Shown piece after piece: positions 3,751 through 26,975 of a stretch of 37,019 bases of DNA. How positions within the stretch are numbered: position 1 is the stretch's first letter; every line of letters starts with the position of its first letter. The position numbers and the translations under genes are program-made. The stretch covers positions 1 through 37,019 of the forward strand of contig DRQG01000048.1 in assembly GCA_011369465.1 (NCBI GenBank), in the 5' to 3' direction. Source of the stretch: Caldithrix abyssi (GTDB lineage: Bacteria; Calditrichota; Calditrichia; Calditrichales; Calditrichaceae). A model generated the notes under the pieces. The model saw only the letters and a program-made list of their open reading frames with translations. It ran no database searches and was not told where the DNA came from.

Positions 3751-4725
3751 ATGAATCTTAAAGGACGTGATTTTATTTCCACTCAGGATTGGAAAAAAGA
3801 GGAACTGTTGTATGCTTTGGACAAAGCGGACGAATTAAAACGCAAATTCAAAAACGGCGAACCGCACCGCGAATTGGCGGACAAGACCGCTTTTCTGATT
3901 TTTTTCGATAAATCCACGCGCACCCGTAATTCGTTTGAAGCGGGAATGACCCAGTTGGGCGGGCATGCCCATTTTATCGAAGCCCAAACATCGCAAATCG
4001 CCCATGGCGAGAGTCCCAAAGATATGGGGATTATCCTTTCCAGTTATGGCCACGCCATTGCCATCCGTCACGATTTGGTACCTGGCGAAGGAAACAGCTA
4101 CATGCGTGAAGTGGCCAAATGGGCTTCGGCGCCGGTGTTTAATATGCAATGCGATGTGGATCACCCTTTCCAGATGATGGCCGACCTGATGACCATCCGG
4201 GAAAAGTTCGGACAGGATTTAAAAGGAAAAAGAATTGCCGTTTCCTGGGCCTATGCGCCCAGTTATGCCAAGCCGATGTCCGTACCGCAAGGGCTGATTA
4301 TGCTGATGACCCGCTTCGGAATGGATGTGGTTCTGGCTCATCCCCCGGAATATACATTAATGGACGAACCGATGGCACATGCCCGTAAAAACGCCGAAGA
4401 GAACGGCGGCAGCTTTACGGTGGTGGATTCCATGGAAGAAGCTTTTCGGGATGCCGACATTGTTTATCCCAAAAGCTGGGGCATCCAATCGTTATTCGGC
4501 GAGCCGGAAAAAGCGCTGGAAATTTCCAAAAAATACACCCACTGGATTTGCGATGAAGAAAAAATGAAACTGACCAAAGAAAGTTCCATCTATATGCACT
4601 GTCTGCCGGCCGACCGCGGCTACGAAGTAACGGACGAAGTGATAGACGGGCCGCATTCGGTCATTTATCAGGAAGCGGAAAACCGGCTGCATACCGCCAA
4701 GGCCATTATGGCGTTGACGATGTAA
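3751..4725 (+). CDS. ygeW: YgeW/ornithine-carbamoyltransferase-like knotted carbamoyltransferase
   Basis: Cytoplasmic transcarbamylase-superfamily protein of 324 residues. The carbamoyl-phosphate loop is S55-T-R-T-R59 in FDKSTRTRNSFEAG, and the HCLP motif is at 283-286. YgeW-type signatures are SQIAHGES, GNSYMREV, MQCDVDHPFQMMADL, and WAYAPSYAKPMSVPQGL followed by MTRFGMDVVLAHPPEY. The C-terminus, however, reads PADRGYEVTDEV...YQEAENRLHTAKA, which is OTCase-like, and the protein is about 70 residues shorter than E. coli YgeW. The amino-group acceptor is unknown; ornithine is not assured. AAAGGA is 7 bases before the ATG. Pairing with YgeY mirrors the E. coli cluster, but ygeX and the selenium-hydroxylase genes are absent here. 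The symbol is given for family membership only. Confidence 0.8.
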   Translation: MNLKGRDFISTQDWKKEELLYALDKADELKRKFKNGEPHRELADKTAFLIFFDKSTRTRNSFEAGMTQLGGHAHFIEAQTSQIAHGESPKDMGIILSSYGHAIAIRHDLVPGEGNSYMREVAKWASAPVFNMQCDVDHPFQMMADLMTIREKFGQDLKGKRIAVSWAYAPSYAKPMSVPQGLIMLMTRFGMDVVLAHPPEYTLMDEPMAHARKNAEENGGSFTVVDSMEEAFRDADIVYPKSWGIQSLFGEPEKALEISKKYTHWICDEEKMKLTKESSIYMHCLPADRGYEVTDEVIDGPHSVIYQEAENRLHTAKAIMALTM

Positions 4726-6456: not shown

Positions 6457-8397
6457 ATGACTTTAATCTTTAACCATATATTTATTTCACAGCATCGCCG
6501 GTTTGCAAATATAATTCTGCTGATCAGCGCGCTGTTGGCGGTAACGTCTCTTCTTGCCCAGGATGTACCGGCGTCGTACAGCAATATGGGGTATGACAAA
6601 CAGGGCAGGCTGTATTTACAGGTTTCGGATACGTTGCGCTTATATGCCGATACATCAAGCTCCCCTTTAACACTTGAAAATCTGCGGGGTGATCCTAAGG
6701 GAACGGATGAGGGTATTGCCTTCAATTTCCAAAACCCTGATTTGAATGGAACTCTTTATTACGGTTTTATTCCCTATGAGGATGCACGTTATCCCTTACC
6801 GGTATATTTTGCCAGAACAGCCAAAATAAAAAACGGCAGGACGGAAATAAAAATAAAAAAGCGGATGAGCGGACGCTATGATATGATTCATTGGGAAGAA
6901 AAAGGAAAAGGTACACTGGGGTATCGTGTGGTGGATGATCGCGGTAATTTTCTTTATGACGGTATTATATCCTTCAAGGGCACAGGACCGTTCGAAATAG
7001 ACGATACCATTATCGAGGGACCCTTTGTCAATCTATTGACTGATCAGGGAGCGGTAATTTCTTTTGATACCAACACCAAAATCAAGGCTTCTGTAACGGT
7101 TGACGGAAAAAAGTTTGAGGATGCCCAATCCGCTTACCATCATGAAATAAATCTGAACGGGCTGAAACCGTCAACGCGCTATACATATACGATTCATTAC
7201 GGGGATAACAGCTTAAACTATGATTTTAAAACGGCTCCTCAGCCGGGCTCGCGCCGGCCTTTTGTATTTGCCTACGCCAGCGATTCACGCGCCGGCCGGG
7301 GAGGGGGAGAACGTAGTGTCTATGGCGTAAATCATTATATAACCAAACGAATTATCGCTTATGCCGCACAACAACAGGTCTCTTTTGTCCAATTTACCGG
7401 TGATATCATAAATGGATATGCGACGAAGACGGAGAACATGGATTTACAATATGCAAATTGGAAACGAGCGGTATCACCGTTTGGGGCGTATCTCCCTATT
7501 ATTGTAGGCATGGGTAACCATGAAGCATTGATTCATCGTTTTCCCGGGATTGGTCGTTATGGGCTATCCATAGATCGGTTTCCATTTGCGGATCAATCGT
7601 CCGAAGCCATATTTGCGCGCCATTTTGTAAATCCTTTGAACGGCCCTCTTAGCGAAGATGGCTCTATCTATGACCCAAACATGGATACAAATGATTTCCC
7701 ATCCTATAAGGAAAATGTTTTTTATTACAACTATGATAATTCTGCCATCATCGTACTCAATTCTGACTATTGGTATGCTCCCAGCCTGAAATATCATAAT
7801 GAATCTTCTGGAAATCTGCATGGTTACGTAATGGATAAACAATTTGAATGGCTCAAACAAACTCTGATTAAATTGGAAAATGATAAAAATGTTGATCATA
7901 TTTTTGTAACCATTCATACCCCATTTTTCCCCAATGGCGGGCACGTTGGAGATGCTATGTATTATAATGGCTCCAATGAAAAGCGAGCTTATGTTGCCGG
8001 CAAACCTGTAGCAAAAGGTATCATTGAACGCAGAGATGAGCTTTTAGACTTATTTATAAATAAAAGTACAAAAGTAGTAGCAATTTTGACAGGAGATGAG
8101 CACAATTATTGCCGTACGTTAATCGGGCCACAAACTTCTTTGTATCCTGAGGAATATACAGGCAATAAATTAAAATTGAGGCGTTCCATTTGGCAAATAA
8201 ATAACGGCGCAGCCGGGTCACCTTACTATGCCCAGGAGATAACGCCTTGGAGCGCTCAAACGTATGGATTTACGACCCAAAACGCTGTGGTTTTGGTGTA
8301 CGTGCATGGACAAAATGTGGATGTTAAAGTGTATAATCCGGATACATTGGAACCAGTTGACCGATTTAATCTGAAAAATGCAAAACAAAATGAATGA
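6457..8397 (+). CDS. Secreted calcineurin-like / purple-acid-phosphatase-like phosphoesterase
   Basis: Secreted binuclear-metal phosphoesterase of 646 residues. A hydrophobic signal segment ending near LLAQ is followed by a beta-rich N-terminal part, an Fn3-like domain of purple-acid-phosphatase type (about 185-265), and a calcineurin-like catalytic domain. Its metal-site motifs are D276 in YASDSR, D316 in FTGDIINGY, N354-H355 in GMGNHEA, H487 in VTIHTPF and D547-E-H549 in TGDEHNY. Two positions depart from the common family pattern: the first motif has Arg after D-x instead of His, and the last has Asp where GHxH has the first His. AAGGAG lies 6 bases before the ATG. It is 18 bases after the amidohydrolase gene and is closed by a terminator, so it ends that operon. 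Substrate unknown; the neighbouring glycerophosphate locus makes an organophosphate likely. Confidence 0.83.
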   Translation: MTLIFNHIFISQHRRFANIILLISALLAVTSLLAQDVPASYSNMGYDKQGRLYLQVSDTLRLYADTSSSPLTLENLRGDPKGTDEGIAFNFQNPDLNGTLYYGFIPYEDARYPLPVYFARTAKIKNGRTEIKIKKRMSGRYDMIHWEEKGKGTLGYRVVDDRGNFLYDGIISFKGTGPFEIDDTIIEGPFVNLLTDQGAVISFDTNTKIKASVTVDGKKFEDAQSAYHHEINLNGLKPSTRYTYTIHYGDNSLNYDFKTAPQPGSRRPFVFAYASDSRAGRGGGERSVYGVNHYITKRIIAYAAQQQVSFVQFTGDIINGYATKTENMDLQYANWKRAVSPFGAYLPIIVGMGNHEALIHRFPGIGRYGLSIDRFPFADQSSEAIFARHFVNPLNGPLSEDGSIYDPNMDTNDFPSYKENVFYYNYDNSAIIVLNSDYWYAPSLKYHNESSGNLHGYVMDKQFEWLKQTLIKLENDKNVDHIFVTIHTPFFPNGGHVGDAMYYNGSNEKRAYVAGKPVAKGIIERRDELLDLFINKSTKVVAILTGDEHNYCRTLIGPQTSLYPEEYTGNKLKLRRSIWQINNGAAGSPYYAQEITPWSAQTYGFTTQNAVVLVYVHGQNVDVKVYNPDTLEPVDRFNLKNAKQNE

Positions 8398-8430: not shown

Positions 8431-8461
8431 AAAATACAGATTATTCTGTATTTTCTTTTTT
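8431..8461 (+). terminator. Rho-independent terminator after the phosphoesterase gene
   Basis: Perfect 10-bp stem AAAATACAGA (8431-8440) / TCTGTATTTT (8445-8454) with a TTAT loop, then C and six T residues (8456-8461). The stem is A/U-rich, so it may be leaky, but position and T-run fit. It separates the ygeY-phosphoesterase unit from the glp locus. Confidence 0.8.
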
Positions 8462-8482: not shown

Positions 8483-8511
8483 TTGATTAAATGTCTATAC
8501 ATTTATATATT
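8483..8511 (+). promoter_or_regulatory. Sigma70-like promoter of the glpT-led operon
   Basis: TTGATT (8483-8488, 4/6 to TTGACA) and TATATT (8506-8511, 5/6 to TATAAT) are separated by exactly 17 bases. The predicted start near 8518 gives a leader of about 69 bases before the glpT ATG. It lies just after the terminator of the previous unit, where a new promoter is needed, and its spacer contains a HutC-type operator. Confidence 0.65.
8491..8502. promoter_or_regulatory. Candidate GntR/HutC operator ATGTCTATACAT inside the glpT promoter spacer
   Basis: ATGTCTATACAT is an imperfect palindrome (10 of 12 positions symmetric). Its core GTCTATAC matches the HutC-subfamily GntR consensus that I recall as NyGTMTAKACNy at every defined position. 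It lies wholly between the -35 and -10 boxes, where bound repressor would block RNA polymerase. The same locus encodes a GntR regulator with a UTRA domain (18726-19532), the natural candidate to bind it. I saw no second copy of this core in the other intergenic gaps of the window. Confidence 0.6.
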
Positions 8512-8586: not shown

Positions 8587-9939
8587 ATGTTGTTCGAACG
8601 CATTAAGAGTTTTTACGCACCGCCGCTTCCAATCCCTCGGTTACCCGAAAGCGAAATAGACCACACTTACAAAAAATACCGCTGGAGCACACTCGAGTCG
8701 ACCTTCTTGGGATATGCAACCTTTTATTTAGTTCGTAATAATCTGTCAACTGTAGCAAAAGATATAGAAGGCGCCCTAAACTACGATCATAATATGATCG
8801 GCAGTATCTTAGCAGTTACTGCTATTGCCTATGGTATAGGCAAATTTTTAATGGGCTCTCTTTCGGATCGTAGCGACCCGCGAAAATTTATGGCCACAGG
8901 CCTGCTTTTTACGGCTTTTTGTAATTTTGCATTCGGTGGGGTGGCGAGTTACACCGTACACTTTTTATTATGGGCTTTAAACGGTTTTATTCAGGGAATG
9001 GGTTGGCCTCCTTGCGGTCGTTCTATCGGTCATTGGTTTAGCATGCGTGAGCGTGGTTCCATATTTGCAATCTGGAATGTTGCGCATAATATCGGTGGGG
9101 GATTAGCTGGCATCTTGGCTGCTTACGCGGCTTCCCATTTTGGCTGGCAGGCAGCATTTTATGTTCCTGGGATGATCGCTGTTGTCGGATCAATGTATTT
9201 ATTTTGGCGATTACGCGATACCCCTCAATCCGTTGGGCTGCCTCCTATCGAAGAATATAAAAATGATTATTCGGAAGATGAAAAGAAATATGGTGTAAAT
9301 GAGAAAGAGCTAAGAACAAGAGAACTCTTTATTGACTATGTTCTAAAGAATAAGGCATTGTGGCTCATTGCCATATCCAATTTTTTTGTTTACATCGTGC
9401 GTTATAGTATGTTGGATTGGGGGCCAACCTATTTGCGTGAAATAAAAGGCGCCAGTCTGACTGATGGCGGGTTTGCTATTCTCGTCATTGAATTTGGCGG
9501 CATTCCTTCCACGATTTTAATGGGCTGGATTTCGGATAAAGTGGGTGGACGCCGGGGAATGGTAAGCTTGTTGTGCATGATTCCAATTTTTATGGCATTT
9601 ACGGGTATCTATTTGAATCCACCAGGTCATTTTTGGTTGGACATGTTCTTTCTATCGGTTATAGGGTTTTTTGTTTATCCTCCTGTGATGCTCCTGGGCG
9701 TTGCGGGTCTGGATTTAACATCAAAAAAGGCCGTCGGTACAGCCGCCGGATTTATAGGTTTATTTGGGTACATTGGGCGTACCGTTCAGGCAAAGGGTTT
9801 TGGTTGGATAGTCGATTATTTTGGTGGAATCTATGGTTCTGAGACGGCCTGGAATCTGGTGATTTTTGTCATATTGGGCAGTACTCTGCTGGCGATTTTC
9901 CTTTTAAGTTTTACTTGGAATATGAAACCGCGTGCCTGA
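8587..9939 (+). CDS. glpT: Glycerol-3-phosphate:phosphate antiporter GlpT (MFS, OPA family)
   Basis: Inner-membrane transporter of 450 residues with 12 expected helices, closely similar to E. coli GlpT throughout. Substrate-site residues are kept: R50 in FYLVRNN (E. coli R45), the His in IWNVAHNIGGG (E. coli H165) and the Arg in FVYIVRYSMLDWGPTYL (E. coli R269). Other shared signatures are GSLSDRSDPR, GMGWPPCGRSIGHW, RDTPQSVGLPPIEEYKNDY and GTAAGFIGLFGYIGR. It exchanges cytoplasmic phosphate for external glycerol-3-phosphate. A related hexose-phosphate or other organophosphate substrate cannot be excluded, but the full match to GlpT and the glpD/glpQ neighbours make G3P most likely. It is the first gene of the locus and sits behind an apparent repressible promoter; AAAGG lies about 9 bases before the ATG. 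Confidence 0.94.
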   Translation: MLFERIKSFYAPPLPIPRLPESEIDHTYKKYRWSTLESTFLGYATFYLVRNNLSTVAKDIEGALNYDHNMIGSILAVTAIAYGIGKFLMGSLSDRSDPRKFMATGLLFTAFCNFAFGGVASYTVHFLLWALNGFIQGMGWPPCGRSIGHWFSMRERGSIFAIWNVAHNIGGGLAGILAAYAASHFGWQAAFYVPGMIAVVGSMYLFWRLRDTPQSVGLPPIEEYKNDYSEDEKKYGVNEKELRTRELFIDYVLKNKALWLIAISNFFVYIVRYSMLDWGPTYLREIKGASLTDGGFAILVIEFGGIPSTILMGWISDKVGGRRGMVSLLCMIPIFMAFTGIYLNPPGHFWLDMFFLSVIGFFVYPPVMLLGVAGLDLTSKKAVGTAAGFIGLFGYIGRTVQAKGFGWIVDYFGGIYGSETAWNLVIFVILGSTLLAIFLLSFTWNMKPRA

Positions 9940-9991
9940 GCGCAAGGATACTTAACGTGTTTAGAGACTTGCCGAATTTTATGGAGAATAT

Positions 9992-12706
9992 ATGAACAGG
10001 TTAAAAATAATAGCCATCTTTCTGATGCCCCTTTTATATTTTAGTATAAGTTTCTCCGGCACAACCGGTAAAATTAAAGGCGTTGTTTTGGATAAAGAAA
10101 CAGGTGAACCGTTAGTCGGAGCGAATGTGGTTATCAAAGGCACTGCAATGGGGGCGGCTACAAATTTAGACGGGAGCTATTTTATAATCAATGTGCCGCC
10201 GGGAAAATATTCCCTTGAAATTATTGCCATCGGATATCAGAGTGTGGTTGTGAATGATGTTCAGGTGGTTACTGACCGCACAACGATTCAAAATTTTATG
10301 CTTTCTCAGCAAATATTGGAGGGAGAGGCGGTAGTGGTAGTGGCTTCTCGTCCGATAGTCGAAAAAGACCGTACAAATACAATGGCTTATGTAACCAGCG
10401 AGCAGATTGATGCTTTACCTGTCCAGGAGGTGGAAGATTTAATCTCGCTTCAGTCCGGTATCACCAAAGACGCTAGTGGAAAATTCCATATGCGTGGCGG
10501 ACGGGCCGGTGAAATTGCTTATATGGTCGATGGAATTCCTGTTACCGACCAATATCGCGGGGGTAGCCTTGTGGAAATGGAAAACAGTTGGATACAGGAA
10601 TTGCAGGTGATCTCAGGAACGTTTAACGCGGAATATGGTCAGGCGCAGTCCGGAGTTATCAATGTGGTCAGCAAAGGAGGTACGCAGGAATTCTCGGGAG
10701 ATGCAACGCTCTGGCTTGGTGACCATGTCAGTGGAAACGACGATATCTACATGAATATAGGAAAGGTGGGATTGGGGGAATACAATTTACAATTAAGTTT
10801 AAGCGGGCCTATATCGTTTTTCCCGGATGCATCCTTCTTCTTTTCCGGTCGAATCTATAATACGGATGGTTGGTTATACGGAGAGCGACGAACCCGTATT
10901 GACGATACGGTTCCTATCCAGGCCTATTATCATGAGGCTCAACAAAACCCGAGCGAAGAGGAAAGATTAATCGGTATCAAAATTCCTGATTCTTTGCAAA
11001 CCGGTGATGGATCTTACGTTCCCCTTAATCCACGTATGAAATATTCCATTTATGGTAATATGCGCTTTCGTTTATGGCAGGGAACGGATATAACCTACTC
11101 ATTGTTTGCCGACCAACAAACATGGAAAACATACAGCGATGCAAGGCGTTACGCTCCTGACGGTGTCCCCGAAAAATACCGTACCAGTTTTAACCATATC
11201 CTTAATTTTACGCATTCATTATCTAATCGCACTTTTTATAAACTTGGGTTTTCCTATTCATCCAAAGAGGATAAATCTTATCTCTTCGAGGACCCGCTTG
11301 ATAACCGGTACCAAGGTAAAGCACTCTACCTGAACGGGTTTTATTTTGGGGGAACCAACAATTCCCGATACGATAATATCGTAAATACTATGCTGGGTAA
11401 ATTTGATTTGACCAGTCAGGTTAATTCATATAATCTGGTCAAATTTGGGGGAGTGTTGAAATATCATGATATAACGCATAACACCTTAACCACAATTTCC
11501 CGCAGCGCGGTCTATGAACCGCCAAATCTGGAAATACCCGCCCGCAACACATCCAACAATAATTTCTACAATCACAAACCTCTGGAATTTGCTGTTTACA
11601 TACAGGATAAAGTCGAATTCAATGAGATTATTTTTAATGCCGGATTACGATTCGATTATTGGGACTCTCGATCGGAAGTACTTACAGACCTGGAAGCGAT
11701 CACCGACATCGATGACGGGATACGTAGCAGTTCGCCACGCGAGCCCAGCACCCCGAGCTGGCAGTTAAGTCCAAGGTTTGGCCTGGCCTTCCCGGTTTCG
11801 TCAACTGGGGTGTTTCATGTTTCTTACGGGCATTTTTTTCAAATTCCTCGCTTTTCCTATATTTTTGCCAATTCGGAATTTGAGATTGAGCTGGGCGATT
11901 TGGAAACAATTATGGGGAATGCCAATTTGCTACCGGAAAAAAATATATCGTACGAAATCGGTTTCCAGCAAGAATTAGCGGCCACCTGGGGCTTAAATAT
12001 TACGGTTTATTATAAAGACATTAAGAATTTGCTTGGTCAGGAAATCATTAACACTCGTGATAAAAAAGTGTATGCCCGTTACATTAATCGCGACTATGGC
12101 AATGTAAAAGGTATTACCCTCGCCCTGGAAAAAATCTATTCCGATATGTTCGCTGCAACTATAGATTATACCTATCAGGTGGCGCGGGGTAATGCTTCCG
12201 ATCCCAATTCAGTTTTTTATGATTTCCAATCTCATCCGCCGCGTGAAAGTGAAAAACAGGTTCTGCCATTGGATTGGGATCAACCGCATATAATCAATGC
12301 AACGGTGCGCATAGGCGATCCGCGTAGTTGGAATATTGGAATTATCGGAAGGTATGAATCGGGACAACCTTACACACCGTCAAATCCGGGCAGTGCCTTA
12401 ACCACTCAATTCCGTAACAGCGATCGTAAACCCGATATTTTCTATATAAATCTTAATCTTTACAAAACATTCAAACTGTTTAATCAAAAAATGCGGCTTT
12501 TTGCCAAAATATACAATCTGTTTGATAATTTGAACGAGATAAAAGTGTATTCGAGTACAGGAAGAGCACAGTTCCCCTATCGCACTAACGCCGACCGCCA
12601 AATTCTGGAAAGAAATCCTAATTTTACTTTAGAAGAAATGGACCTTCGGCCGGATTTTTATTACGAACCCCGCAGGGTTGTATTGGGATTAACCGTTTAT
12701 TTTTAA
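9992..12706 (+). CDS. TonB-dependent outer-membrane receptor with carboxypeptidase-regulatory-like N-terminal domain
   Basis: Outer-membrane active transporter of 904 residues. After a signal peptide ending near ISFSG comes a CarboxypepD_reg-like domain (about 25-110: GKIKGVVLDKETGEPLVGA ... LDGSYFIINVPPGKYSL), then a TonB plug (VEDLISLQSGI, FHMRGGRAGEIAYMVDGIP, FNAEYGQAQSGVINVVSKGG) and a long beta-barrel ending in the outer-membrane-type aromatic terminus VVLGLTVYF. The substrate is not readable from sequence. Its place between glpT and glpD suggests it imports a glycerophospho-compound or small teichoic-acid/phospholipid-derived piece too large for porins. GGAG lies 5 bases before the ATG. 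The next two genes encode a large surface protein and a PorV-like barrel, an arrangement that resembles a SusC/D-like unit built from different parts. Confidence 0.9.
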   Translation: MNRLKIIAIFLMPLLYFSISFSGTTGKIKGVVLDKETGEPLVGANVVIKGTAMGAATNLDGSYFIINVPPGKYSLEIIAIGYQSVVVNDVQVVTDRTTIQNFMLSQQILEGEAVVVVASRPIVEKDRTNTMAYVTSEQIDALPVQEVEDLISLQSGITKDASGKFHMRGGRAGEIAYMVDGIPVTDQYRGGSLVEMENSWIQELQVISGTFNAEYGQAQSGVINVVSKGGTQEFSGDATLWLGDHVSGNDDIYMNIGKVGLGEYNLQLSLSGPISFFPDASFFFSGRIYNTDGWLYGERRTRIDDTVPIQAYYHEAQQNPSEEERLIGIKIPDSLQTGDGSYVPLNPRMKYSIYGNMRFRLWQGTDITYSLFADQQTWKTYSDARRYAPDGVPEKYRTSFNHILNFTHSLSNRTFYKLGFSYSSKEDKSYLFEDPLDNRYQGKALYLNGFYFGGTNNSRYDNIVNTMLGKFDLTSQVNSYNLVKFGGVLKYHDITHNTLTTISRSAVYEPPNLEIPARNTSNNNFYNHKPLEFAVYIQDKVEFNEIIFNAGLRFDYWDSRSEVLTDLEAITDIDDGIRSSSPREPSTPSWQLSPRFGLAFPVSSTGVFHVSYGHFFQIPRFSYIFANSEFEIELGDLETIMGNANLLPEKNISYEIGFQQELAATWGLNITVYYKDIKNLLGQEIINTRDKKVYARYINRDYGNVKGITLALEKIYSDMFAATIDYTYQVARGNASDPNSVFYDFQSHPPRESEKQVLPLDWDQPHIINATVRIGDPRSWNIGIIGRYESGQPYTPSNPGSALTTQFRNSDRKPDIFYINLNLYKTFKLFNQKMRLFAKIYNLFDNLNEIKVYSSTGRAQFPYRTNADRQILERNPNFTLEEMDLRPDFYYEPRRVVLGLTVYF

Positions 12707-12726
12707 AATCAACTTGAGGGATTAGA

Positions 12727-15700
12727 ATGCATAAAAAGTTGACCACATTAATTATATTTTTCATCGCCTGGCTACTTTTATTTACTATAGCTAAACCTTT
12801 GTCTGCTCAGGAAGAGGATACAGATAAATCCAACCTACTGAAATTAAATAAACTAAGCGGCAGGGACGAACGACGCACCGGGGTACACGATGGAAATCTG
12901 GTATATACACGTTTTTCCAACTTCGGAAATCTGGGTAGCCGTTACGAACCACCCAAAATGGAATGGCCAAAGGGCTCCGGCATTTGGTACGGTTTCGAAT
13001 TTATTATGATTGCCGGTGCAGAAGTGGTTGATGCCCATGGAGATACCATCCACATCATGTCCGAAAACTACACCAATCCAAAATCATTCGACATTGCGCC
13101 GGATGGCTCGCATACTTACGGTTGGGAACCTCTGCCCGGTTATTTCAATGACGGGCCGGAAAACATAGATAACTATCCGGCTATGAGCCATAAACCGGAG
13201 ACCTGGCCAAAGTCGTGGCCTTACGATTATCCCGGCGAACCCGGTTCGCGTGACGGTAAATGGAATGGCGAATTTGGCGCCTATACCCGGGCAGACCAGG
13301 AAAGTTACTATGTGATGGATGACCGAAATAACGATGAATTCGACTATTATCCATTCATCGGCAGCTCGGAAGACTCGGCTGATTTTCCAACAGGCCGCCG
13401 CGGTTTAGGGCTGCAAGTTAAGGTGCGTGGATATCAATGGGTTCAGGTAGAAGCCGAAGATATTCTTATAGTCCGATATGATATTAAAAATGTTAGCGAT
13501 AAGGATCTGGAAAAAGTGGTTTTTGGCATGTATATAGATCCGGCTGTCGGAGGCGAAGGCGATTCGATGGATGATGATGCATATTTTGACACCGAGGATG
13601 ATATTACTTATTGCTGGGATCTGGATGGTTATGATAATAAAGGACGTCCAGGTGTTGGTTATTTTGGCTTTGCCTTTCTGGAAAGTCCGGGAGACCCGTT
13701 AAATGGGATTGATGATGATGAAGATGGTTTGGTGGATGAACGCCAGGACAATGATCGCGGCTCCTATATATTCGGTCCCATTGGAAATTTCGGACCGCCA
13801 AAATACCATTGGGAAGGCGACGAAGACGGCGACTGGCGCCCATATCATGATGCTAATGAGAACGGTAAATGGGATGAGGGCGAAGATATTTTTGACGATA
13901 AGGGTTCGGACGGAATTGGCCCGTATGATCAGGATTACCCGGGTCCGGATTTGGACGGCACAGAAGCCAATGGCATGCCGGACCAAGGCGAACCGAACTT
14001 CGGTAAAACCGATAATGACGAATCCGACCAAATCGGATTAACCAGTTTTCTGTTACGTCCGGCCGGTAATATCAGTGACGATGAGCGGTTATGGAATGAA
14101 ATGACCCCCGGTTTGTTCGGCGGGGCTTTGCCTTCTAACCTGGCCTTTATTTACGGTTCCGGATATTTTAGCTTGCCAAAGGGTGAAACACGCAAATTTG
14201 CCATAGCCTGTTTATTTGGCAACGATTTTGACGATATTTTACGTAACAAGCGTACTATGCAGCGCATCTATGATGCAGACTATAATTTTACCAAACCGCC
14301 GCTTCTGCCTACATTAAAGGCAACTGCTGGTGACGGAAAAGTAATTCTGAGGTGGGATAGCCGTGCAGAGCAATCCATAGACCCGATCTATGGTAAAGAT
14401 TTCGAGGGCTATCTGATTTACCGTTCTACAGATCCATCTTTCAATTCTATAAAAACAATAACAGACGCGTATGGTAATCCCATTTTTTGGAAACCAATTG
14501 CTCAATTTGATCTTAAAGACGGTTTAACCGGTCCCCATCCTATCCAAACCGGAGAAAGCGGCGCTCACTTCGCCATGGGCGAAGACACGGGTTTGCAATA
14601 TTATTTTGTAGATGAAGATGTGGATAACGGGCGTACATACTACTATGCAGTTACATCCTATGATAAAGGGTATGATGAAGATTTTTATGATCGTGGGATT
14701 GTGGATGAGCCGTTATTGGCCCCTGTGGCTCCAAGTGAGTGCAGTAAAATTATTCAAACCGATTTGGTGGGCAATGTAATCAATATTGGCCGAAATTGCG
14801 CTGTAGTAGTACCCAATGCCCCCAGCGCCGGGTATGTGGAAGGCAATATAGGGCAAGGTGTGGTTCATAAAAGCGGTATCGCCACTGGATCGGTAAATGT
14901 AAATGTTTTGTTGGCGGACAGCCTGAAAGACAATCACACCTATCGGATTACTTTTAAAGATTCCTCATTGGCGCGCTATACCCAGTCGGTGATTGTTGAG
15001 GATGTAACACTACAGGATACAGTGTATGTAGTGACTCCTTATGATGAATTCGAGTTGGGCAATGAAATTATTGACGGCTTACAGTTCGAATTTAATAACG
15101 ATTCTGCTAAGGTGACAGATTTCGGCTGGATAAAAGGAGAAGCCAACATGCCGGCAACGGTTGCCCTTCTTGAATCGAATAAATCATTACCCCTGCCCGA
15201 AGATTTTGAAATCAGGGTGATGCAGGCCAATGCCGATACATCCTTTGACCCGTTGCCCTTTTTGCGCAAGCCGGTGAATTTCCAGCTGTGGAGCACAACC
15301 ACAAATAAAAAATATAAGTTTTTATTCAACGAAAAAACCAATAAAGATGGTATGCTTAATTTTGGAGATGAAATTGTTGTCGCTTATAATATTGAAGGAT
15401 TCCGGTATAATACAGCCTGGCGTATTGTTTTTGGTGATAGCAGTGAGGTTGAGAACCCCCGCGCACCGGAAGAAGGGGATGTTTTTTTCTTTGAAGTCAG
15501 CAAACCGTTCACATCGGATGATGTATATGAGTTCATTACCTATACCAGCAAAAGAGATAAAAAATTAGCTGCAGATAATTTGGATAATATCTATGTTGTA
15601 CCGGACCCCTATGTTGTATCCGCATCCTGGGAAAAACCATTGTTTTATTCTTCGGGACGGGGTGAGCGTCGCATAGATTTTGTAAATCTTCCCACGGAAT

Positions 15701-15894
15701 GTACGATTCGTATTTTCACTATTAGTGGAAGATTAGTCAAAACGATAGAACATCGGAGCACTATATCCAACGGATCAGAATCCTGGGATTTAATTTCCGA
15801 TGATGGTTTAACCGTCTCATACGGCGTTTATATTTTTCATGTTCAGGCACCCGGTTTGGGTGAAAAAATTGGTAAATTTGCTCTGATAAAATGA
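12727..15894 (+). CDS. Large secreted surface protein with Ca-binding-like repeats, Fn3-like module and T9SS-type C-terminal domain
   Basis: No named family recognised. The 1055-residue protein has a signal peptide (to about LSAQEE) and a Trp/Tyr/Gly-rich N-terminal region. An acidic segment at about 327-435 has several EF-hand/thrombospondin-3-like loops (IDDDEDGLVDE, DANENGKWDEGED, DLDGTEANGMPDQGE, KTDNDESDQIG). An Fn3-like module follows at about 529-665 (GDGKVILRWD...GYLIYRSTD...YYYAVTSYD), then a region with VVPDPYVVSASWE, and a C-terminal domain from about 978 (IRIFTISGRLVKT ... YGVYIFHV) like type A T9SS sorting domains. It is predicted to be exported by T9SS and held at the surface, where it could serve as substrate-binding partner of the receptor encoded 20 bases upstream. 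GAGGG precedes the ATG. Confidence 0.75.
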   Translation: MHKKLTTLIIFFIAWLLLFTIAKPLSAQEEDTDKSNLLKLNKLSGRDERRTGVHDGNLVYTRFSNFGNLGSRYEPPKMEWPKGSGIWYGFEFIMIAGAEVVDAHGDTIHIMSENYTNPKSFDIAPDGSHTYGWEPLPGYFNDGPENIDNYPAMSHKPETWPKSWPYDYPGEPGSRDGKWNGEFGAYTRADQESYYVMDDRNNDEFDYYPFIGSSEDSADFPTGRRGLGLQVKVRGYQWVQVEAEDILIVRYDIKNVSDKDLEKVVFGMYIDPAVGGEGDSMDDDAYFDTEDDITYCWDLDGYDNKGRPGVGYFGFAFLESPGDPLNGIDDDEDGLVDERQDNDRGSYIFGPIGNFGPPKYHWEGDEDGDWRPYHDANENGKWDEGEDIFDDKGSDGIGPYDQDYPGPDLDGTEANGMPDQGEPNFGKTDNDESDQIGLTSFLLRPAGNISDDERLWNEMTPGLFGGALPSNLAFIYGSGYFSLPKGETRKFAIACLFGNDFDDILRNKRTMQRIYDADYNFTKPPLLPTLKATAGDGKVILRWDSRAEQSIDPIYGKDFEGYLIYRSTDPSFNSIKTITDAYGNPIFWKPIAQFDLKDGLTGPHPIQTGESGAHFAMGEDTGLQYYFVDEDVDNGRTYYYAVTSYDKGYDEDFYDRGIVDEPLLAPVAPSECSKIIQTDLVGNVINIGRNCAVVVPNAPSAGYVEGNIGQGVVHKSGIATGSVNVNVLLADSLKDNHTYRITFKDSSLARYTQSVIVEDVTLQDTVYVVTPYDEFELGNEIIDGLQFEFNNDSAKVTDFGWIKGEANMPATVALLESNKSLPLPEDFEIRVMQANADTSFDPLPFLRKPVNFQLWSTTTNKKYKFLFNEKTNKDGMLNFGDEIVVAYNIEGFRYNTAWRIVFGDSSEVENPRAPEEGDVFFFEVSKPFTSDDVYEFITYTSKRDKKLAADNLDNIYVVPDPYVVSASWEKPLFYSSGRGERRIDFVNLPTECTIRIFTISGRLVKTIEHRSTISNGSESWDLISDDGLTVSYGVYIFHVQAPGLGEKIGKFALIK

Positions 15895-15937
15895 GTGAAA
15901 ATAGAATATTATCTATCCACGGTTGCGAGGAACAATA

Positions 15938-17005
15938 ATGAGAAAACCTTTCATATATTTAGGTTTTATTTTACTTCTCTTGTTTATATTTTTGATTCCC
16001 CGTTTGTATGCCCAGGGTGGGGAAGAGGATTATGCTGTAAATTTTGCCGAAAATATTTCCAATCGCGGTACATCTGCGGCCGCTTTCCTGGAAATCGGAA
16101 TTGGAGCCAAAGCGTTGGGACTGGGCGGAGCATTTACTGCTTATGCCAATGATGCCTCAGCTCTTTATTGGAACCCCGCAGGAATTACCGAATTGAACAG
16201 AATCTCCGTTTCGGCAAATCATACGGGTTGGTTAGCAAACACCAAACTGGAATACTTTGGTCTCGTTCTGCCTGTGGGGGAATCCATTACTGTCGGATTG
16301 ATCCTTTCGGTCCTTGATTATGTTGATCAACAGCCGGTGCGTACAATCCTCCAGCCGGAAGGAACCGGTGAATATTATGATGCTTCGGATTTATTATTGG
16401 GTGTGAGCTTTGCTGTTAAATTGACCAATCGTTTTTCCTTTGGTTGTAATGCAAAGTATATTCAACAAAAAATATGGCACGAATCCGCTAAGGGTTTTGC
16501 GATTGATGTGGGCATACTTTATCATACGATTTGGGATGGCTTAACCATAGGCGCAAGTATATCAAACTTCGGAACAGATATGCAATTAAGCGGGCGAGAC
16601 CTTACACGCCCTTATGACGACGATCCGCAGAATTATTCTAATGATAAGCTAAATACACAGTTAAAAACAGATGCCTTTCCTTTACCCCTGCTTTTCAGGT
16701 TTGGGCTGGCATATACCATGGATATCAATTCTAATAATCAAATAACAGCCCTGATCGATCTAAATCATCCCAGCAGCAATGTTGAATATGTAAACACGGG
16801 TTTGGAATATATGCTGATGAAACGTTTTGCAATTAGAGCTGGATTCCAATCCCTTTTTGATTCCAGCCGTGAAAATGGGCTTACCTTTGGTGCCGGCCTG
16901 AATTACGATATCAGCAGCGCTTTTGGGATTACATTTAACTATGCCTATTCAGACTGGGGTATTCTGGGCAATGTACAACGTTTTTCTATAGACCTGGATT
17001 TCTAA
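15938..17005 (+). CDS. PorV/PorQ-family outer-membrane beta-barrel protein
   Basis: Outer-membrane protein of 355 residues, FadL-like barrel of the PorV/PorQ (UPF0164) family. Hallmarks: signal peptide ending LYAQ, then FLEIGIGAKALGLGGAFTAYANDASALYWNPAGI, the defining motif of the family, followed by alternating beta strands and a final aromatic residue (SIDLDF). PorV escorts T9SS cargo to the attachment machinery at the cell surface; other members accompany specific cargo. An in-frame TTG lies upstream at 15923, but GAGGA at 15927-15931 is 6 bases before the ATG at 15938 and the signal peptide starts there, so I chose 15938. It follows a T9SS-type cargo gene and sits in a locus with two more, so a cargo-specific shuttle role is plausible. 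Confidence 0.85.
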   Translation: MRKPFIYLGFILLLLFIFLIPRLYAQGGEEDYAVNFAENISNRGTSAAAFLEIGIGAKALGLGGAFTAYANDASALYWNPAGITELNRISVSANHTGWLANTKLEYFGLVLPVGESITVGLILSVLDYVDQQPVRTILQPEGTGEYYDASDLLLGVSFAVKLTNRFSFGCNAKYIQQKIWHESAKGFAIDVGILYHTIWDGLTIGASISNFGTDMQLSGRDLTRPYDDDPQNYSNDKLNTQLKTDAFPLPLLFRFGLAYTMDINSNNQITALIDLNHPSSNVEYVNTGLEYMLMKRFAIRAGFQSLFDSSRENGLTFGAGLNYDISSAFGITFNYAYSDWGILGNVQRFSIDLDF

Positions 17006-17017
17006 TGTTTTTGTATT

Positions 17018-18673
17018 ATGGGTAATAATTTAGTTCGCTCAAATAAAAAGAATAAGCTGTTCGATTTGGCAATTATAGGGGGAGGAATTAACGGAGCGGG
17101 TATTGCGCTTGATGCGGCATTGCGTGGTCTATCTGTTGTATTATTGGAAAAAGACGATTTTGGCAGTCATACTACCAGTGCATCGACTAAGCTTATTCAT
17201 GGTGGTTTACGTTATTTGGAATATTTCGATTTCGGCCTGGTAAGAGAATCCCTACGAGAGCGAGAACGGTTATTGCGCAATGCACCACATTTGGCCTGGC
17301 CGCTTAAACTGAATGTGCCGGTTTACCGGCACAGCAAGCGCGGTCCTGTACTTATAAAAGCGGGTATGATATTGTATGACATTCTCTCTTACGACAAGAG
17401 CTTACCTTCACACAACTTTTATCGGGTGGGAAATAACGGACATAGACTCCCTTTGGATAGTGGAATAAATAAGCAAGGACTAAGAGCAGTGGCCAGTTAT
17501 TATGACTGTCAGATCGGTTATCCCGAGAGGTTGTGTATAGAGGTTGTACTTAGCGCCCAAAGGGAAGGAGCGCTTACGCTGAATTATCATGAAGTATTAT
17601 CGGTCTCTGATCATACGGATCGTAAGACTTTGTTGATTCATGATAAAATCCATAACAGCAGATTAGAAATTTCTGCAAGAATGGTCGTAAATGCCGGTGG
17701 TATTTTCGTTGATGAGGTGAACAAACGCATAGATAACTCTATACCTCGGAAAATGGGGGGAACAAAAGGGAGTCATATCTTAATCCGTAAATTTGATCAT
17801 GGGCCTAAGAACGCGTATTATGTGGAAGCTGTTCAGGATGGTCGCCCATTTTTCGTTATTCCCTGGCGAGATTATTATTTAATAGGTACAACGGATATTT
17901 ATTATGATGGCGATTTAGATCATATTACTGCCAGCGAAGAGGAAGTTGACTATTTATTAACCGAATTACATCATCTTTTTCCCTCCTGGTCTGTAACAAA
18001 AAAAGATATTGTATATACCTATTCCGGGGTACGTCCATTGCCTTATGAGCCGGGGAAAAAAGAAAGTCAAATCACACGCAACCATATAATTTTGGACCAT
18101 GGAAAATTTGAGGGACCGGATAATTTAATTTCTATCATAGGAGGTAAACTTACCACCTATCGTAGTTTGGCTGAAGAATGTGTGGATCTGGTTTGCAGGA
18201 AACTCGGCTGTAGTACAAAATGTCTCACCCAATCTTATACATTAATCGGTGGTAAAGGATTCGTATCATATACTACAGATTTGGATAATCAGGTACGGGA
18301 ATATGCGCGAAGATTTACATTAAGTGAGAAAGTTGTTAAGCATCTTATATTGTATTATGGCAGTCGTTTTAAAGAGATATTAGCCCTCACCGAGAAAAAT
18401 CCGGAATTAAAACAAACAGTTTGCAAAAATAATTCAGACATTTTAGCGCAGGTTGTGTATGCAATTCAGGCTGAGCAGGCCAAAACTCTGGAAGATATAC
18501 TGCTTCGCCGCACATCGATTGGTACAAGTTTTTGTATGGGGCTGGATTGCGTTCAGAATATTGCTCCGCTTGCATCCGAATATTTGGACTGGAATGAAGA
18601 GCAGATGATGCAAGCAATAGAAAATTATATTGAATACATTTATATAAACCATAAAAATCATCTAAAAAACTAA
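17018..18673 (+). CDS. glpD: Aerobic glycerol-3-phosphate dehydrogenase GlpD (FAD, quinone-linked)
   Basis: Membrane-associated flavoenzyme of 551 residues that oxidises glycerol-3-phosphate to dihydroxyacetone phosphate and passes electrons to quinone. The FAD Rossmann motif G21-G-G-I-N-G-A-G28 is followed by the glutamate in VVLLEKDDFGSHTTSASTKL, and then IHGGLRYLEYFDFGLVRESL, the standard GlpA/GlpD signature. Further markers are GGTKGSHILI, FVIPWRDYYLIGTTD, YSGVRPL and GGKLTTYRSLAEE; a C-terminal helical domain with DILLRRTSIG closes the protein. Length fits GlpD. The start has no visible Shine-Dalgarno sequence; it lies 12 bases after the PorV-like gene and may depend on coupling. It is the cytoplasmic end of the pathway begun by GlpQ and GlpT. 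Confidence 0.95.
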   Translation: MGNNLVRSNKKNKLFDLAIIGGGINGAGIALDAALRGLSVVLLEKDDFGSHTTSASTKLIHGGLRYLEYFDFGLVRESLRERERLLRNAPHLAWPLKLNVPVYRHSKRGPVLIKAGMILYDILSYDKSLPSHNFYRVGNNGHRLPLDSGINKQGLRAVASYYDCQIGYPERLCIEVVLSAQREGALTLNYHEVLSVSDHTDRKTLLIHDKIHNSRLEISARMVVNAGGIFVDEVNKRIDNSIPRKMGGTKGSHILIRKFDHGPKNAYYVEAVQDGRPFFVIPWRDYYLIGTTDIYYDGDLDHITASEEEVDYLLTELHHLFPSWSVTKKDIVYTYSGVRPLPYEPGKKESQITRNHIILDHGKFEGPDNLISIIGGKLTTYRSLAEECVDLVCRKLGCSTKCLTQSYTLIGGKGFVSYTTDLDNQVREYARRFTLSEKVVKHLILYYGSRFKEILALTEKNPELKQTVCKNNSDILAQVVYAIQAEQAKTLEDILLRRTSIGTSFCMGLDCVQNIAPLASEYLDWNEEQMMQAIENYIEYIYINHKNHLKN

Positions 18674-18693
18674 ATATTTGAATAAACACAGTT

Positions 18694-18703
18694 AAGTTAA
18701 CTT
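18694..18703. promoter_or_regulatory. Palindrome AAGTTAACTT upstream of the gntR-type gene
   Basis: Perfect 10-bp palindrome in the 52-base gap between glpD and the regulator gene, touching a TATAAA (18704-18709) that could be a -10 box; TTGAAT (18678-18683) is the nearest -35-like word but the 20-base gap is too long. It does not match the HutC core found at the glpT promoter. It may be an autoregulatory site or chance in A/T-rich sequence. Confidence 0.3.
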
Positions 18704-18725
18704 TATAAATACAAGCGAGAAAGAC

Positions 18726-19532
18726 ATGGCGCCGTTTAATAAAAACTTTATGCCTAAGTTCTACCAAATATTCGAAGATTTGTATAAGGATATACGGGAA
18801 GGACATTATCAGGAAGGGGATCGTATTCCCAGCGAGAGCGAACTCATACAAAAGTATCAGGTAAGCAGGGGAACCATTCGTGAGGCGCTTAAGATGCTTT
18901 TGCACCAGGGTTTTATTATACGCGAAAAAGGTAAGGGCACTTTTGTTACTTATAAAAAAATCGAACAGGATGCGATGCGTTTAATGGGCTTTACCGAATT
19001 AATGAATATGCATAATAAGAAGGCCTCAGCGCGGATTCTGGAAATTAAAACCAAAAAGGCAAGTAAAAGAATCCGCAAGTTAATGGGGCTTAGCGAAACG
19101 GGTTTGATTACCAAAATTCAACGACTTCGGTTCGGAAATGATGAGCCTTTGATAATTGAACGTTCATATTTTGTTTACGAGTTGTTTAAAATATTCCTGA
19201 AATTTGATCTGGAAAAAGAATCGATCTACAGCCTGATGTACCGTGAAACGAATTTACGTTTAGGTAGTGCTCAACAAAGTTTTGAAGCGGTTTTGGCCGG
19301 ACCTGAAGAAAGCAAACTGTTAAATATCCAACCGGGCAGCCCTTTATTGTTAATGAAACGACTTATTTTTACAAATGAAGGAAAACCATTTCAGTATTCG
19401 GAAGATATGTATCGAAGTGATAAACTTAAATTTACCGTCAAAACGCTGATGTATGACGAAACTCACTCCCGTTTTGACACCTCGATTGGATTGGTAATAA
19501 ACGATCTCAAAACCAACGTACCCACAACCTAA
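18726..19532 (+). CDS. GntR-family (HutC subfamily) transcriptional regulator with UTRA domain
   Basis: Cytoplasmic one-component regulator of 268 residues. The winged helix-turn-helix (about 10-75) has the canonical GntR sequence: YKDIREGHYQEGDRIPSESELIQKYQVSRGTIREAL...FIIREKGKGTFV. The C-terminal part (about 90-255) has UTRA-domain features: an early beta strand with ILEIK, TGLITKIQRLRFGNDEPLIIERSYF, LLNIQPGSPLLLMKRLIF and YSEDMYRSDKLKF. UTRA domains bind small effectors, often sugars or phosphorylated metabolites, which relieve repression. Inside a glp locus the effector may be glycerol-3-phosphate or a related compound (inference). A HutC-consensus site lies in the glpT promoter. This differs from the E. 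coli design, where a DeoR-type GlpR controls the regulon. Confidence 0.9.
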   Translation: MAPFNKNFMPKFYQIFEDLYKDIREGHYQEGDRIPSESELIQKYQVSRGTIREALKMLLHQGFIIREKGKGTFVTYKKIEQDAMRLMGFTELMNMHNKKASARILEIKTKKASKRIRKLMGLSETGLITKIQRLRFGNDEPLIIERSYFVYELFKIFLKFDLEKESIYSLMYRETNLRLGSAQQSFEAVLAGPEESKLLNIQPGSPLLLMKRLIFTNEGKPFQYSEDMYRSDKLKFTVKTLMYDETHSRFDTSIGLVINDLKTNVPTT

Positions 19533-19606
19533 GGAGGCTGCTTATGGTACAACAGTTCCTATCTCAGATAAGTCTAAATTATTTAATCAACAAGAAAGGA
19601 GAATGT

Positions 19607-22174
19607 ATGAAGAAGTTTCTTTTTACCATTCTGCTAATTGCTATCTTATTGCCTGCTACAACATTTGCGCAATGGGGTAATGCTCTTCATTTTACCTGGC
19701 AGGAGCATGACAGGGTAATTGTACCAAGCGCACCGGACCTGTTTCCGTTTGTGCTTAACGCAGGAACAATTGAAATGTGGTTTAAACCCGATTCTATCCT
19801 GAAATCGGATACCCATGATCCTGACTATACCTATTTGTTCAGTAAAAATCTGGGTGGGAACAATGAAGGGGATATGGGCCTCACCTGGAAACGGGGTTCG
19901 GGTAGTTTACAATGCTTTGTTCAGGATGGCAATGTAACCCAGGATGTGTATCCTGATATCACAATATGGGAACCTCGTTGGTATCACATAGCGTATGTCT
20001 GGGATACCGAGGACTCCATGCGCGTTTTTATAGACGGCGTAATGAGCGCAGATATTGAGCCAAATGAAGAAGGTGAAACCTGCCTGCCCGTTTATGGCGG
20101 AACTCAGGAAATCGTTATCGGAAGTGGCGCCGTGAATCTGTTGGATGCCCGTTTTGAGACATTCCGGGGCACGATTGATGAAGTACGTCTTTCGGCAATC
20201 GCCCGTTATACATCCGATTTTACGCCAGCGACCCAACCTTTTGAAGTAGATGAATATACCATAGCCCTGTGGCATTTTGATGAGGGAAGCGGGGACGTTG
20301 CCGAAGATGTTACGGGTAATGGCTTCACCGGTATTTTGGGCGATCCGGATTCGGTCGGTTATGCCGACCCGGAATGGGTAAAAGTGCAGCGTGATTTAAA
20401 ACTGCTCATTAACGAAGTGTTAGTAGATCCTGCGACTTCCGTGGAAGATGGTGACGCGAATGGCGATGGTGTCAGACACGCTCAGGAAGATGAGTTTGTC
20501 GAATTCATCAATGTTTCCGGTTCACCTTTGGATTTAACAGGCTGGAAAGTAGGAGACGATGAACGTATCGACTTCCAATTTCCGGATGGCTATGTATTGG
20601 AACCATACGACTTTTTAACCATCTTTGGTGGAGGCGATGTTTCCAATGTACCGGGGTATGATCCGGATCCGTTAAAAACACGTGTTTTTGCTACAGGAGA
20701 TAGTATAGGAAACGGATTAGCCAATAGCGGAGACTACTTAGTTGTTCAATCGCCCGATGGTAACCACGATATGTACTTTGCCTATGGGAAAAAATATGGC
20801 GCCGGGCCGCCTACCAGCGATGCCGTTTCTGGTATTGATACCTGGGAATTTGAGATAGAAACTGCAGCAGATGCAGGCAATAATAACTCGGTAACTCGCT
20901 ATCCGGATGCTGATCAGGAGAAAGAAGATCCATTTGTTGAACATTTGGTAGCTAGTGACAGCTCTGCAACGTTTTCTCCCAATACAACAATTGATGGGCA
21001 TCCTAAATTATCCTTTAGTATTGATGTGAATGCAGTACCCGCTAGCGGGGGTACGGTGAGCAAAGATCCGGATAGCTCCAGTTACACCTATGGCGATTAT
21101 GTCTCACTCCAGGCAACGCCGGCCGACTTTTTCGTCTTTGACCATTGGGGATTTGGTGACGAAACTAACAATGCCAATCCCCTGGATATTGTAGTGACGG
21201 GTAGCCAAACTTATACGGCCTATTTCAGCAACATGTATGGCGTAACTCCCACGATTATAGTCAATGAATTGCTTGCTGACCCTTCTTCCGATCCTATTTT
21301 AGGCGACGCCAACGGTGATGGCGTTCGGGACGGAAGCCAGGATGAATTTGTTGAACTTATTAATGTAGGTACGGAAGAGGTTGATATGACCGGTTTTCAG
21401 GCCGGTGATGATGAACAGCTCAGTTTTACTTTCCCTGATGGTTACATTATGAAACCGGGACAAATCGTAGCTATCTTCGGAGGCGGTGATATATCCAATG
21501 TACCTGGTTATGATGCTGACCCGCTGAAGACTAGGGTTTTTGTGTCGGATACAACGGATAAACTGGGTAACGGTCTGGCCAACAGTGGCGACTATTTTCT
21601 GCTTATTTCACCGGATGGAAGTTATGACCTGTATATGGGTTATAACAGCAAATACAATAATGGTCCGCCAACATCCGATGTGGTTTCCGGAATAGATTTT
21701 GAAATTCGTATTGAAACTCAAGCGGTGGCTAATAACAATAACTCGGTCACCCGGAATCCGGATGGCGATGTTAGTGTAAGTGATCCGTTTATGGAACACG
21801 ATTCGGTAAACGGTAAGCCTTTCTCACCTGCTCAGACGATTAATGGTAAAGATTCGCTGACTACTATTACCAATGACGACAATACCGGGTTACCACGAAA
21901 GTTCAGCTTAAAACAAAATTATCCGAATCCATTCAATCCGACTACAACCATCGCTTTTGACGTACCCAGATCCTCGAAAATTGTTCTATCTATTTATAAC
22001 GTACGGGGACAAAAAATAAGAACTCTGGTTAATCAAACGTTTTCTCCGGGGCGATATAAAGTGGAATGGGATGGTAAAAACAATCTGAACAGACAAATGC
22101 CCACCGGAATTTACTTTTACAAGATAGAAGCGGATGGATTCGAATCTGTTCATAAAATGATTTTAATGAAATGA
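19607..22174 (+). CDS. T9SS-exported protein with LamG-like domain, two lamin-tail (LTD) domains and a sorting domain
   Basis: Secreted 855-residue protein. Order of parts: signal peptide (ending ATTFAQ); LamG/concanavalin-like domain (about 18-250: GTIEMWFKPDS...WYHIAYVWD...GTIDEVRLS); LTD 1 (about 266-465: LINEVLVDP...FVEFINVS...LTGWKVGDD); a short 'bacterial repeat' beta module (about 466-545); LTD 2 (about 551-748); and a type A T9SS sorting domain (about 766-855: NYPNPFNPTTTI...IYNVRGQKIRTL...GIYFYKI). Each LTD carries an EF-hand-like loop of the form DANGDGVR...DEF. Two in-frame starts exist: ATG 19544 behind AAGGAGG and ATG 19607 behind AAGGAG (5-base gap). The second begins a clean signal peptide, so I prefer it. 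Role unknown; probably surface binding of polymer or lipid material. Confidence 0.8.
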   Translation: MKKFLFTILLIAILLPATTFAQWGNALHFTWQEHDRVIVPSAPDLFPFVLNAGTIEMWFKPDSILKSDTHDPDYTYLFSKNLGGNNEGDMGLTWKRGSGSLQCFVQDGNVTQDVYPDITIWEPRWYHIAYVWDTEDSMRVFIDGVMSADIEPNEEGETCLPVYGGTQEIVIGSGAVNLLDARFETFRGTIDEVRLSAIARYTSDFTPATQPFEVDEYTIALWHFDEGSGDVAEDVTGNGFTGILGDPDSVGYADPEWVKVQRDLKLLINEVLVDPATSVEDGDANGDGVRHAQEDEFVEFINVSGSPLDLTGWKVGDDERIDFQFPDGYVLEPYDFLTIFGGGDVSNVPGYDPDPLKTRVFATGDSIGNGLANSGDYLVVQSPDGNHDMYFAYGKKYGAGPPTSDAVSGIDTWEFEIETAADAGNNNSVTRYPDADQEKEDPFVEHLVASDSSATFSPNTTIDGHPKLSFSIDVNAVPASGGTVSKDPDSSSYTYGDYVSLQATPADFFVFDHWGFGDETNNANPLDIVVTGSQTYTAYFSNMYGVTPTIIVNELLADPSSDPILGDANGDGVRDGSQDEFVELINVGTEEVDMTGFQAGDDEQLSFTFPDGYIMKPGQIVAIFGGGDISNVPGYDADPLKTRVFVSDTTDKLGNGLANSGDYFLLISPDGSYDLYMGYNSKYNNGPPTSDVVSGIDFEIRIETQAVANNNNSVTRNPDGDVSVSDPFMEHDSVNGKPFSPAQTINGKDSLTTITNDDNTGLPRKFSLKQNYPNPFNPTTTIAFDVPRSSKIVLSIYNVRGQKIRTLVNQTFSPGRYKVEWDGKNNLNRQMPTGIYFYKIEADGFESVHKMILMK

Positions 22175-22186
22175 TTTTTTTAACCG

Positions 22187-22219
22187 GCCACCATAGCTAT
22201 TAGCTATGGTGGCTTTTTT
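22187..22219 (+). terminator. Rho-independent terminator between the two LTD genes
   Basis: Perfect 12-bp stem GCCACCATAGCT (22187-22198) / AGCTATGGTGGC (22202-22213) with loop ATT, followed by six T residues (22214-22219). This is a textbook intrinsic terminator 12 bases after the stop of the first LTD gene. The following gene starts only 19 bases beyond the T-run, leaving almost no space for a promoter of its own, so partial readthrough is likely. Confidence 0.92.
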
Positions 22220-24867: not shown

Positions 24868-24896
24868 TTGACAAAACGACTACGTTATGTTAAAAT
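24868..24896 (+). promoter_or_regulatory. Sigma70-like promoter just upstream of glpQ
   Basis: TTGACA (24868-24873, perfect) and TAAAAT (24891-24896, 5/6) with exactly 17 bases between them. The predicted start near 24902-24904 would leave only 5-7 bases before the ATG at 24909 and would cut off the GGAG ribosome site at 24899-24902, giving a near-leaderless transcript. Either glpQ has such a transcript in addition to readthrough mRNA, or the match is chance. Confidence 0.4.
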
Positions 24897-24908
24897 GTGG
24901 AGAATAGA

Positions 24909-26937: not shown

Positions 26938-26956
26938 TGTACATTTTAATTGTACA
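26938..26956. promoter_or_regulatory. Paired TGTACA operator upstream of the antitoxin gene
   Basis: Two TGTACA hexamers (26938-26943 and 26951-26956), centres 13 bases apart, within an inverted repeat TTGTACA (26937-26943) / TGTACAA (26951-26957). TGTACA is the core of the operator bound by YefM-YoeB complexes in E. coli, where two copies lie about one helical turn apart. The site ends 19 bases before the antitoxin ATG, as expected for autoregulation. Confidence 0.65.
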
Positions 26957-26975
26957 ATTAACAGGATGGTGTAAA

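Follow-up and report, generated by a model that had tools for sequence, protein, structure and literature searches.

A predicted HutC-type operator in the glpT promoter of Caldithrix abyssi and a candidate GntR/UTRA repressor of glycerol-3-phosphate uptake

Results

The glpT gene run and its surroundings

The window analysed here, the whole 37,019-nt stretch of contig DRQG01000048.1 from Caldithrix abyssi, carries a run of seven genes on the forward strand (8587-22174), separated by gaps of 11-52 nt. The run opens with a glpT-like organophosphate:phosphate antiporter gene (8587-9939; TIGR00712, E 3e-135, below the equivalog cut-off), followed by genes for a TonB-dependent receptor with CarboxypepD_reg and Plug domains (9992-12706), a secreted-protein-like ORF of 1055 aa (12727-15894), a PorV/PorQ-family outer membrane protein (15923-17005), a glpD-like glycerol-3-phosphate dehydrogenase scoring above the NF008899 cut-off (17018-18673), a GntR/UTRA regulator of the HutC type (18726-19532) and a secreted protein with a lamin-tail domain (19544-22174), the last gene before a strong terminator. 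This terminator, an intrinsic-type hairpin of 13 pairs followed by a T-run (22186-22214, forward strand), is the probable end of the glpT operon. The earlier note on this DNA had placed a HutC-family gene about 10 kb downstream of the glpT promoter, and the GntR/UTRA gene indeed starts 10.2 kb beyond it, on the same strand. Judging from their spacing, the seven genes would form one transcript and, if so, the regulator would repress its own synthesis.

Beyond the terminator lies a forward-strand glpQ-like glycerophosphodiester phosphodiesterase gene (24897-25982; above the NF008354 cut-off) that has no HutC site upstream. Directly before it is a strong promoter-like sequence, TTGACA-17-TAAAAT (24868-24896; 11/12), also free of a HutC site and leaving almost no leader. 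On the other side, a gene for a purple-acid-phosphatase-like metallophosphoesterase (6457-8397) lies immediately before the glpT promoter and may belong to the same phosphorus-scavenging island. Further along the window, a palindrome with a 16 bp perfect core, TTTTAATTGTACAATTAACA (26944-26963), lies in the gap that precedes a probable PIN-domain (VapC-like) ORF (27203-27601) and may be a toxin-antitoxin operator.

A HutC-type palindrome fills the glpT promoter spacer

The glpT promoter sits in a 189-nt gap (75% AT) between the phosphoesterase gene and glpT, and is parted from the former by a terminator-like inverted repeat, AAATACAGATTATTCTGTATTT (8432-8461, forward strand), which is followed by a T-rich run. 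The -35-like hexamer TTGATT (8483-8488) and the -10-like hexamer TATATT (8506-8511), both on the forward strand, lie 17 nt apart, such that the spacer is filled by a palindrome in the layout TTGATT-AAA-TGTCTATACA-TTTA-TATATT. Sequence and comparative evidence mark the predicted operator as TAAATGTCTATACATTTA (8488-8505), an 18-bp near-perfect palindrome with 8 of 9 pairs complementary. Its centre, ATGTCTATACAT (8491-8502), is the element that had been proposed as a HutC-type operator, and the observation holds: it falls within the 17-nt spacer, and the core GTCTATAC (8493-8500) fits the published HutC operator consensus NyGTMTAKACNy (PMC4494728). Under a Markov model of the gap, the probability of a chance GTMTAKAC in the 189 nt is 0.0067, and that of an 18-bp palindrome with at least 8 of 9 pairs and GT-N4-AC is 0.0006. 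The promoter hexamers alone are not significant, with 44 promoter-like sites found against 49.7 expected.

Both the site and the regulator stand nearly alone in their own genome, which is 98.5% complete at 4.31 Mb. The 18-mer TAAATGTNTANACATTTA finds a single match with fewer than two mismatches, the operator itself at 8488-8505, and of the five occurrences of TGTMTAKACA the copy in the glpT promoter is the only intergenic one, the other four lying inside long ORFs. Within the window, no further site turned up at glpD, gntR or glpQ; the coding sequence of glpD does contain a near-operator match, TTGTATATACCT (18009-18020), some 0.7 kb ahead of the regulator gene. No UTRA protein other than the one encoded at 18726-19532 was found in the genome, and the remaining GntR-like winged-helix proteins, one GntR without UTRA and three of the DeoR family, are all encoded on other contigs.

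Family and recognition residues of the regulator

The regulator combines an N-terminal GntR winged helix (PF00392, E 2.1e-19, 69.4 bits against a 27-bit cut-off) with a C-terminal UTRA domain (PF07702, E 3.1e-36, 124.7 bits against 23.8) and is, by its domains and the type of its site, a member of the HutC subfamily. Its best matches among solved structures are NagR (YvoA; E 1.7e-38) and DasR (E 1.1e-30). Matches to the TreR, PhnF and HutC equivalogs (TIGR02404, TIGR02325, TIGR02018) run the full length, but all fall below the curated NCBIfam cut-offs (140.9 of 212, 122.5 of 156.8 and 128 of 220 bits, respectively), as does LSA1692 (162 of 275 bits), and the three differ from the window regulator in gene context.

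In NagR, Arg38 reads the G at -5 and Arg48 the G at -4 of the operator (PMC4333415). Among the glp-linked regulators compared here, Arg48 is present in all nine and Arg38 in none, and their operators carry a G at -4 but none at -5; the window regulator has Ser at position 38 and its operator T at -5, unlike the Arg38 and GG at -5/-4 that characterize NagR and DasR. The retention of Arg48 and the absence of Arg38 would thus match an operator with T rather than G at -5. The residues that contact phosphate in NagR, at positions 90, 133, 135, 165 and 167 (PMC4333415), are largely retained, with Arg133, Arg135 and Tyr167 in 9/9, Ser165 in 8/9 and Thr or Ser at 90. At the position of NagR Ser226, all nine glp-linked regulators share an Asp that is absent from the 21 other HutC-type proteins compared. 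A tree of 30 proteins places the nine in a single group (support 88/89, group not starred). However, the branch of the window regulator is long and its identity to the Bryobacterales proteins, 32-34%, is not clearly above that to NagR-type proteins elsewhere, so that orthology is moderately supported.

Related regulators and sites at glp loci of Bryobacterales

A scan of genome contigs with the window regulator protein found no relatives, and GTDB genomes were therefore scanned with a GlpT alignment instead, which yielded 57 loci; a search of Acidobacteriota with the regulator of one of these, L061, added six more (L101, L102, L108-L111). Eight loci of Bryobacterales (Acidobacteriota) have a related gntR beside glpT, glpD, glpQ and/or a TonB receptor. 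In L061 and L071 (Bryobacteraceae), glpQ-glpD diverges from glpT-gntR, and the divergent gap holds two copies of ATGTCTAGACAG in each, the only exact copies in the respective genome. Across the seven loci with usable flanks (L108 ends at a contig edge and was left out of the count) 14 TGTCTANACA sites were counted where shuffles predict 0.04, although these loci share ancestry and the counts are therefore not independent events. In the eight genomes (~49 Mb), TGTCTAGACA occurs 14 times, 12 of them within the regulator's own locus and the other two at the start codons of unrelated genes; the regulon that these predicted sites define is small and specific.

The placement of the sites, with promoter hexamers assigned by eye, falls into two kinds. 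Four promoters have the site in a -35/-10 spacer of 17-18 nt, namely the window glpT, L101 glpQ (TTGACT-TCT-TGTATAGACA-GGCT-TATAGT), L061 glpT (TTGACA-GAGA-TGTCTAGACA-GGGA-TATCGT) and L071 glpT (TTGACG-CCGA-TGTCTAGACA-GGTG-TAACGT). At glpD of L061, L071, L102 and L111, and at the TonB-receptor promoters of L110 and L111, the site follows just after the -10-like hexamer. Sites between the two hexamers or directly after the -10 normally block polymerase, and both placements would suit a repressor. In locus L109 (genome G838), two operator sites (4330-4447) follow the regulator gene and have no evident target gene; one of them is preceded by a promoter-like TTGACA.

TonB-type receptors lie beside the regulator in four Bryobacterales loci (L110:1195-4512, L111:593-3919, L101:1795-5217 and L109:7679-10909). 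They are 62-69% identical to the L110 receptor, with OMP_b-brl_4 domains in the three that were scanned, and are candidates for glycerol-phosphodiester uptake proteins.

Relatives that lack the pairing

In a set of 40 genomes from the phylum, the window's genome alone has a glpT at E <= 1e-100, and no member of the family carries the regulator at E <= 1e-40. The closest glpT relatives are in Calditrichaeota CLD2 (L080, 79% identical), KSB1 (L036, 76%) and a Bacteroidales MAG (L037, 73%); none of the three has a regulator on its contig, their genomes yielded no UTRA protein, and the two nearest also lack the site. The earlier note had looked to conservation of the palindrome among orthologous promoters as the test. 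TGTCTAKACA sites are present at the Bryobacterales loci that have a related regulator, which tell more in this respect, but are absent from the close glpT relatives without one, with the exception of L037. There, TTGTCTATACAT (L037:420-431) lies 300 nt upstream of glpT, an orphan site that is unexplained and could be due to chance, a relic or a missing contig.

G315, G302 and G166 encode GlpT at 58-60%, but no other protein of the island, the regulator included, was found nearby. Four Verrucomicrobia UTRA/GntR loci (L065, L069, L072 and L082), which have Asn at positions 38 and 48, form a separate clade and contain no TGTCTA sites, were set aside, and a near-match in L015 was rejected as lying within an apparent coding region (AraC-like by eye). 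In Neomarinimicrobiota, L043:6640-15302 carries glpT (64%) and, after it, genes related to the two lamin-tail proteins encoded in the window (48% and 38%), with no regulator found on the contig. The upstream regions of Candidatus Solibacter glpT (L051:8391 and L083:9837) hold the palindromes GGTTTAAAC/GGTCTAAACC, possibly the site for another HutC regulator.

Discussion

Taken together, the findings make it very probable that the operon's own GntR/HutC regulator binds TAAATGTCTATACATTTA and controls the operon. The core TGTCTAGACA is a generic HutC-type core and does not by itself name the regulator; the pairing of regulator and site is supported by comparison, as it recurs at glp loci in another phylum. 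In the switch that can be envisioned, the regulator dimer without effector would bind TAAATGTCTATACATTTA between the -35 and -10 hexamers and keep RNA polymerase off the glpT promoter, which would repress glpT, the TonB receptor, the PorV-like protein, glpD and, by autoregulation, the regulator's own gene. A phosphorylated effector, most likely glycerol-3-phosphate (G3P) entering through GlpT, would then bind the UTRA domain and release the regulator. The phosphorylated nature of the effector fits the phosphate-binding residues retained in the predicted pocket. The best reading of the locus is thus a locus-specific, autoregulating repressor of glycerol-3-phosphate uptake, with binding, repression and co-transcription all predicted.

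That the effector is G3P itself we consider somewhat better than an even proposition. The same regulator and operator could instead respond to a glycerophosphodiester head-group compound, a downstream triose phosphate or phosphate status, a possibility that we take seriously but hold to be the less probable one. UTRA pockets accept varied ligands, the shared Asp226 could suit an amine head group, and the gene run includes a TonB receptor with glpQ nearby. On the other hand, glpT and glpD, the metabolic genes present most consistently at the linked loci, act on G3P, and the residues that bind phosphate are kept. The GlpQ of E. coli is exported to the periplasm, and a periplasmic GlpQ here would leave G3P as the imported species.

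It is improbable that the palindrome is bound by another regulator, of the DeoR family (GlpR-like) or an FCD-type GntR, while the HutC gene regulates something else. Candidates for such a role exist in the three DeoR-family proteins and the other-type GntR encoded elsewhere in the genome, but none of the DeoR proteins reaches the GlpR cut-off, the GT-N4-AC core has the HutC spacing (PMC4494728), and this core is also found, in a genome-specific manner, with related HutC regulators at the glp loci of Acidobacteriota. Still less credible is a chance AT-rich match in the promoter without any regulatory role: in spite of the base composition of the gap, the frequency of degenerate 12-mers with two mismatches in the window (22 found against 12.9 expected) and the orphan site of L037, the low model probabilities, the near-uniqueness of the site genome-wide and the recurrence of this architecture with a regulator of the same type in another phylum argue against it. 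Equally remote is activation rather than repression by the bound regulator, for which the dual regulation reported for the HutC member NagR of Bacillus thuringiensis (PMC6141813) offers a precedent, but which is at odds with the position of the sites in the aligned promoters.

The regulator that we favor, a HutC-type repressor acting on its own operon, resembles NagR of Bacillus subtilis and DasR of Streptomyces coelicolor, both GntR/HutC repressors, in its GntR and UTRA architecture, the palindromic GT-N4-AC operator, Arg48 and the phosphate-binding residues. Nevertheless, it is not an equivalent of either. Besides its lack of Arg38, the missing G at -5 of its operator and the Asp at position 226, it is linked to glpT, glpD and a TonB receptor and not to nag or amino-sugar genes. 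The enterobacterial GlpR has the physiological role proposed here for the window regulator, in that it controls glpT, glpD and glpQ, but it is of the DeoR type, a family unrelated to the GntR and UTRA proteins, and its operator is of another type than the HutC site. The contrast with GlpR drawn in the earlier note is reasonable, since there is no DeoR-type protein at the locus. We found no HutC/UTRA regulator of glp genes in the literature, where subscription papers were mostly outside the scope, making this weak evidence of absence.

A wider interpretation, to which we give about even chances, is that a new G3P-specific HutC subfamily, marked by Asp226 and the lack of Arg38, controls glp modules (glpT, glpD, glpQ and TonB receptor) in Bryobacterales and one Calditrichota lineage. 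Such a subfamily may have moved between phyla and would be a non-homologous replacement of GlpR that also ties TonB uptake across the outer membrane to glycerol-phosphate sensing.

Conclusions

Glycerol-phosphate scavenging in these bacteria appears to be under a repressor unlike the DeoR-type GlpR of E. coli, and the analysis provides a predicted regulator, an operator and a likely effector for this process in Calditrichota and soil Acidobacteriota. It also offers a clean case in which HutC operator specificity may be read from two recognition residues; if the specificity does rest on these, an S38R substitution would move the preference towards GGTCTAGACC. Finally, it assigns a probable substrate class to the TonB receptors linked to the regulator.
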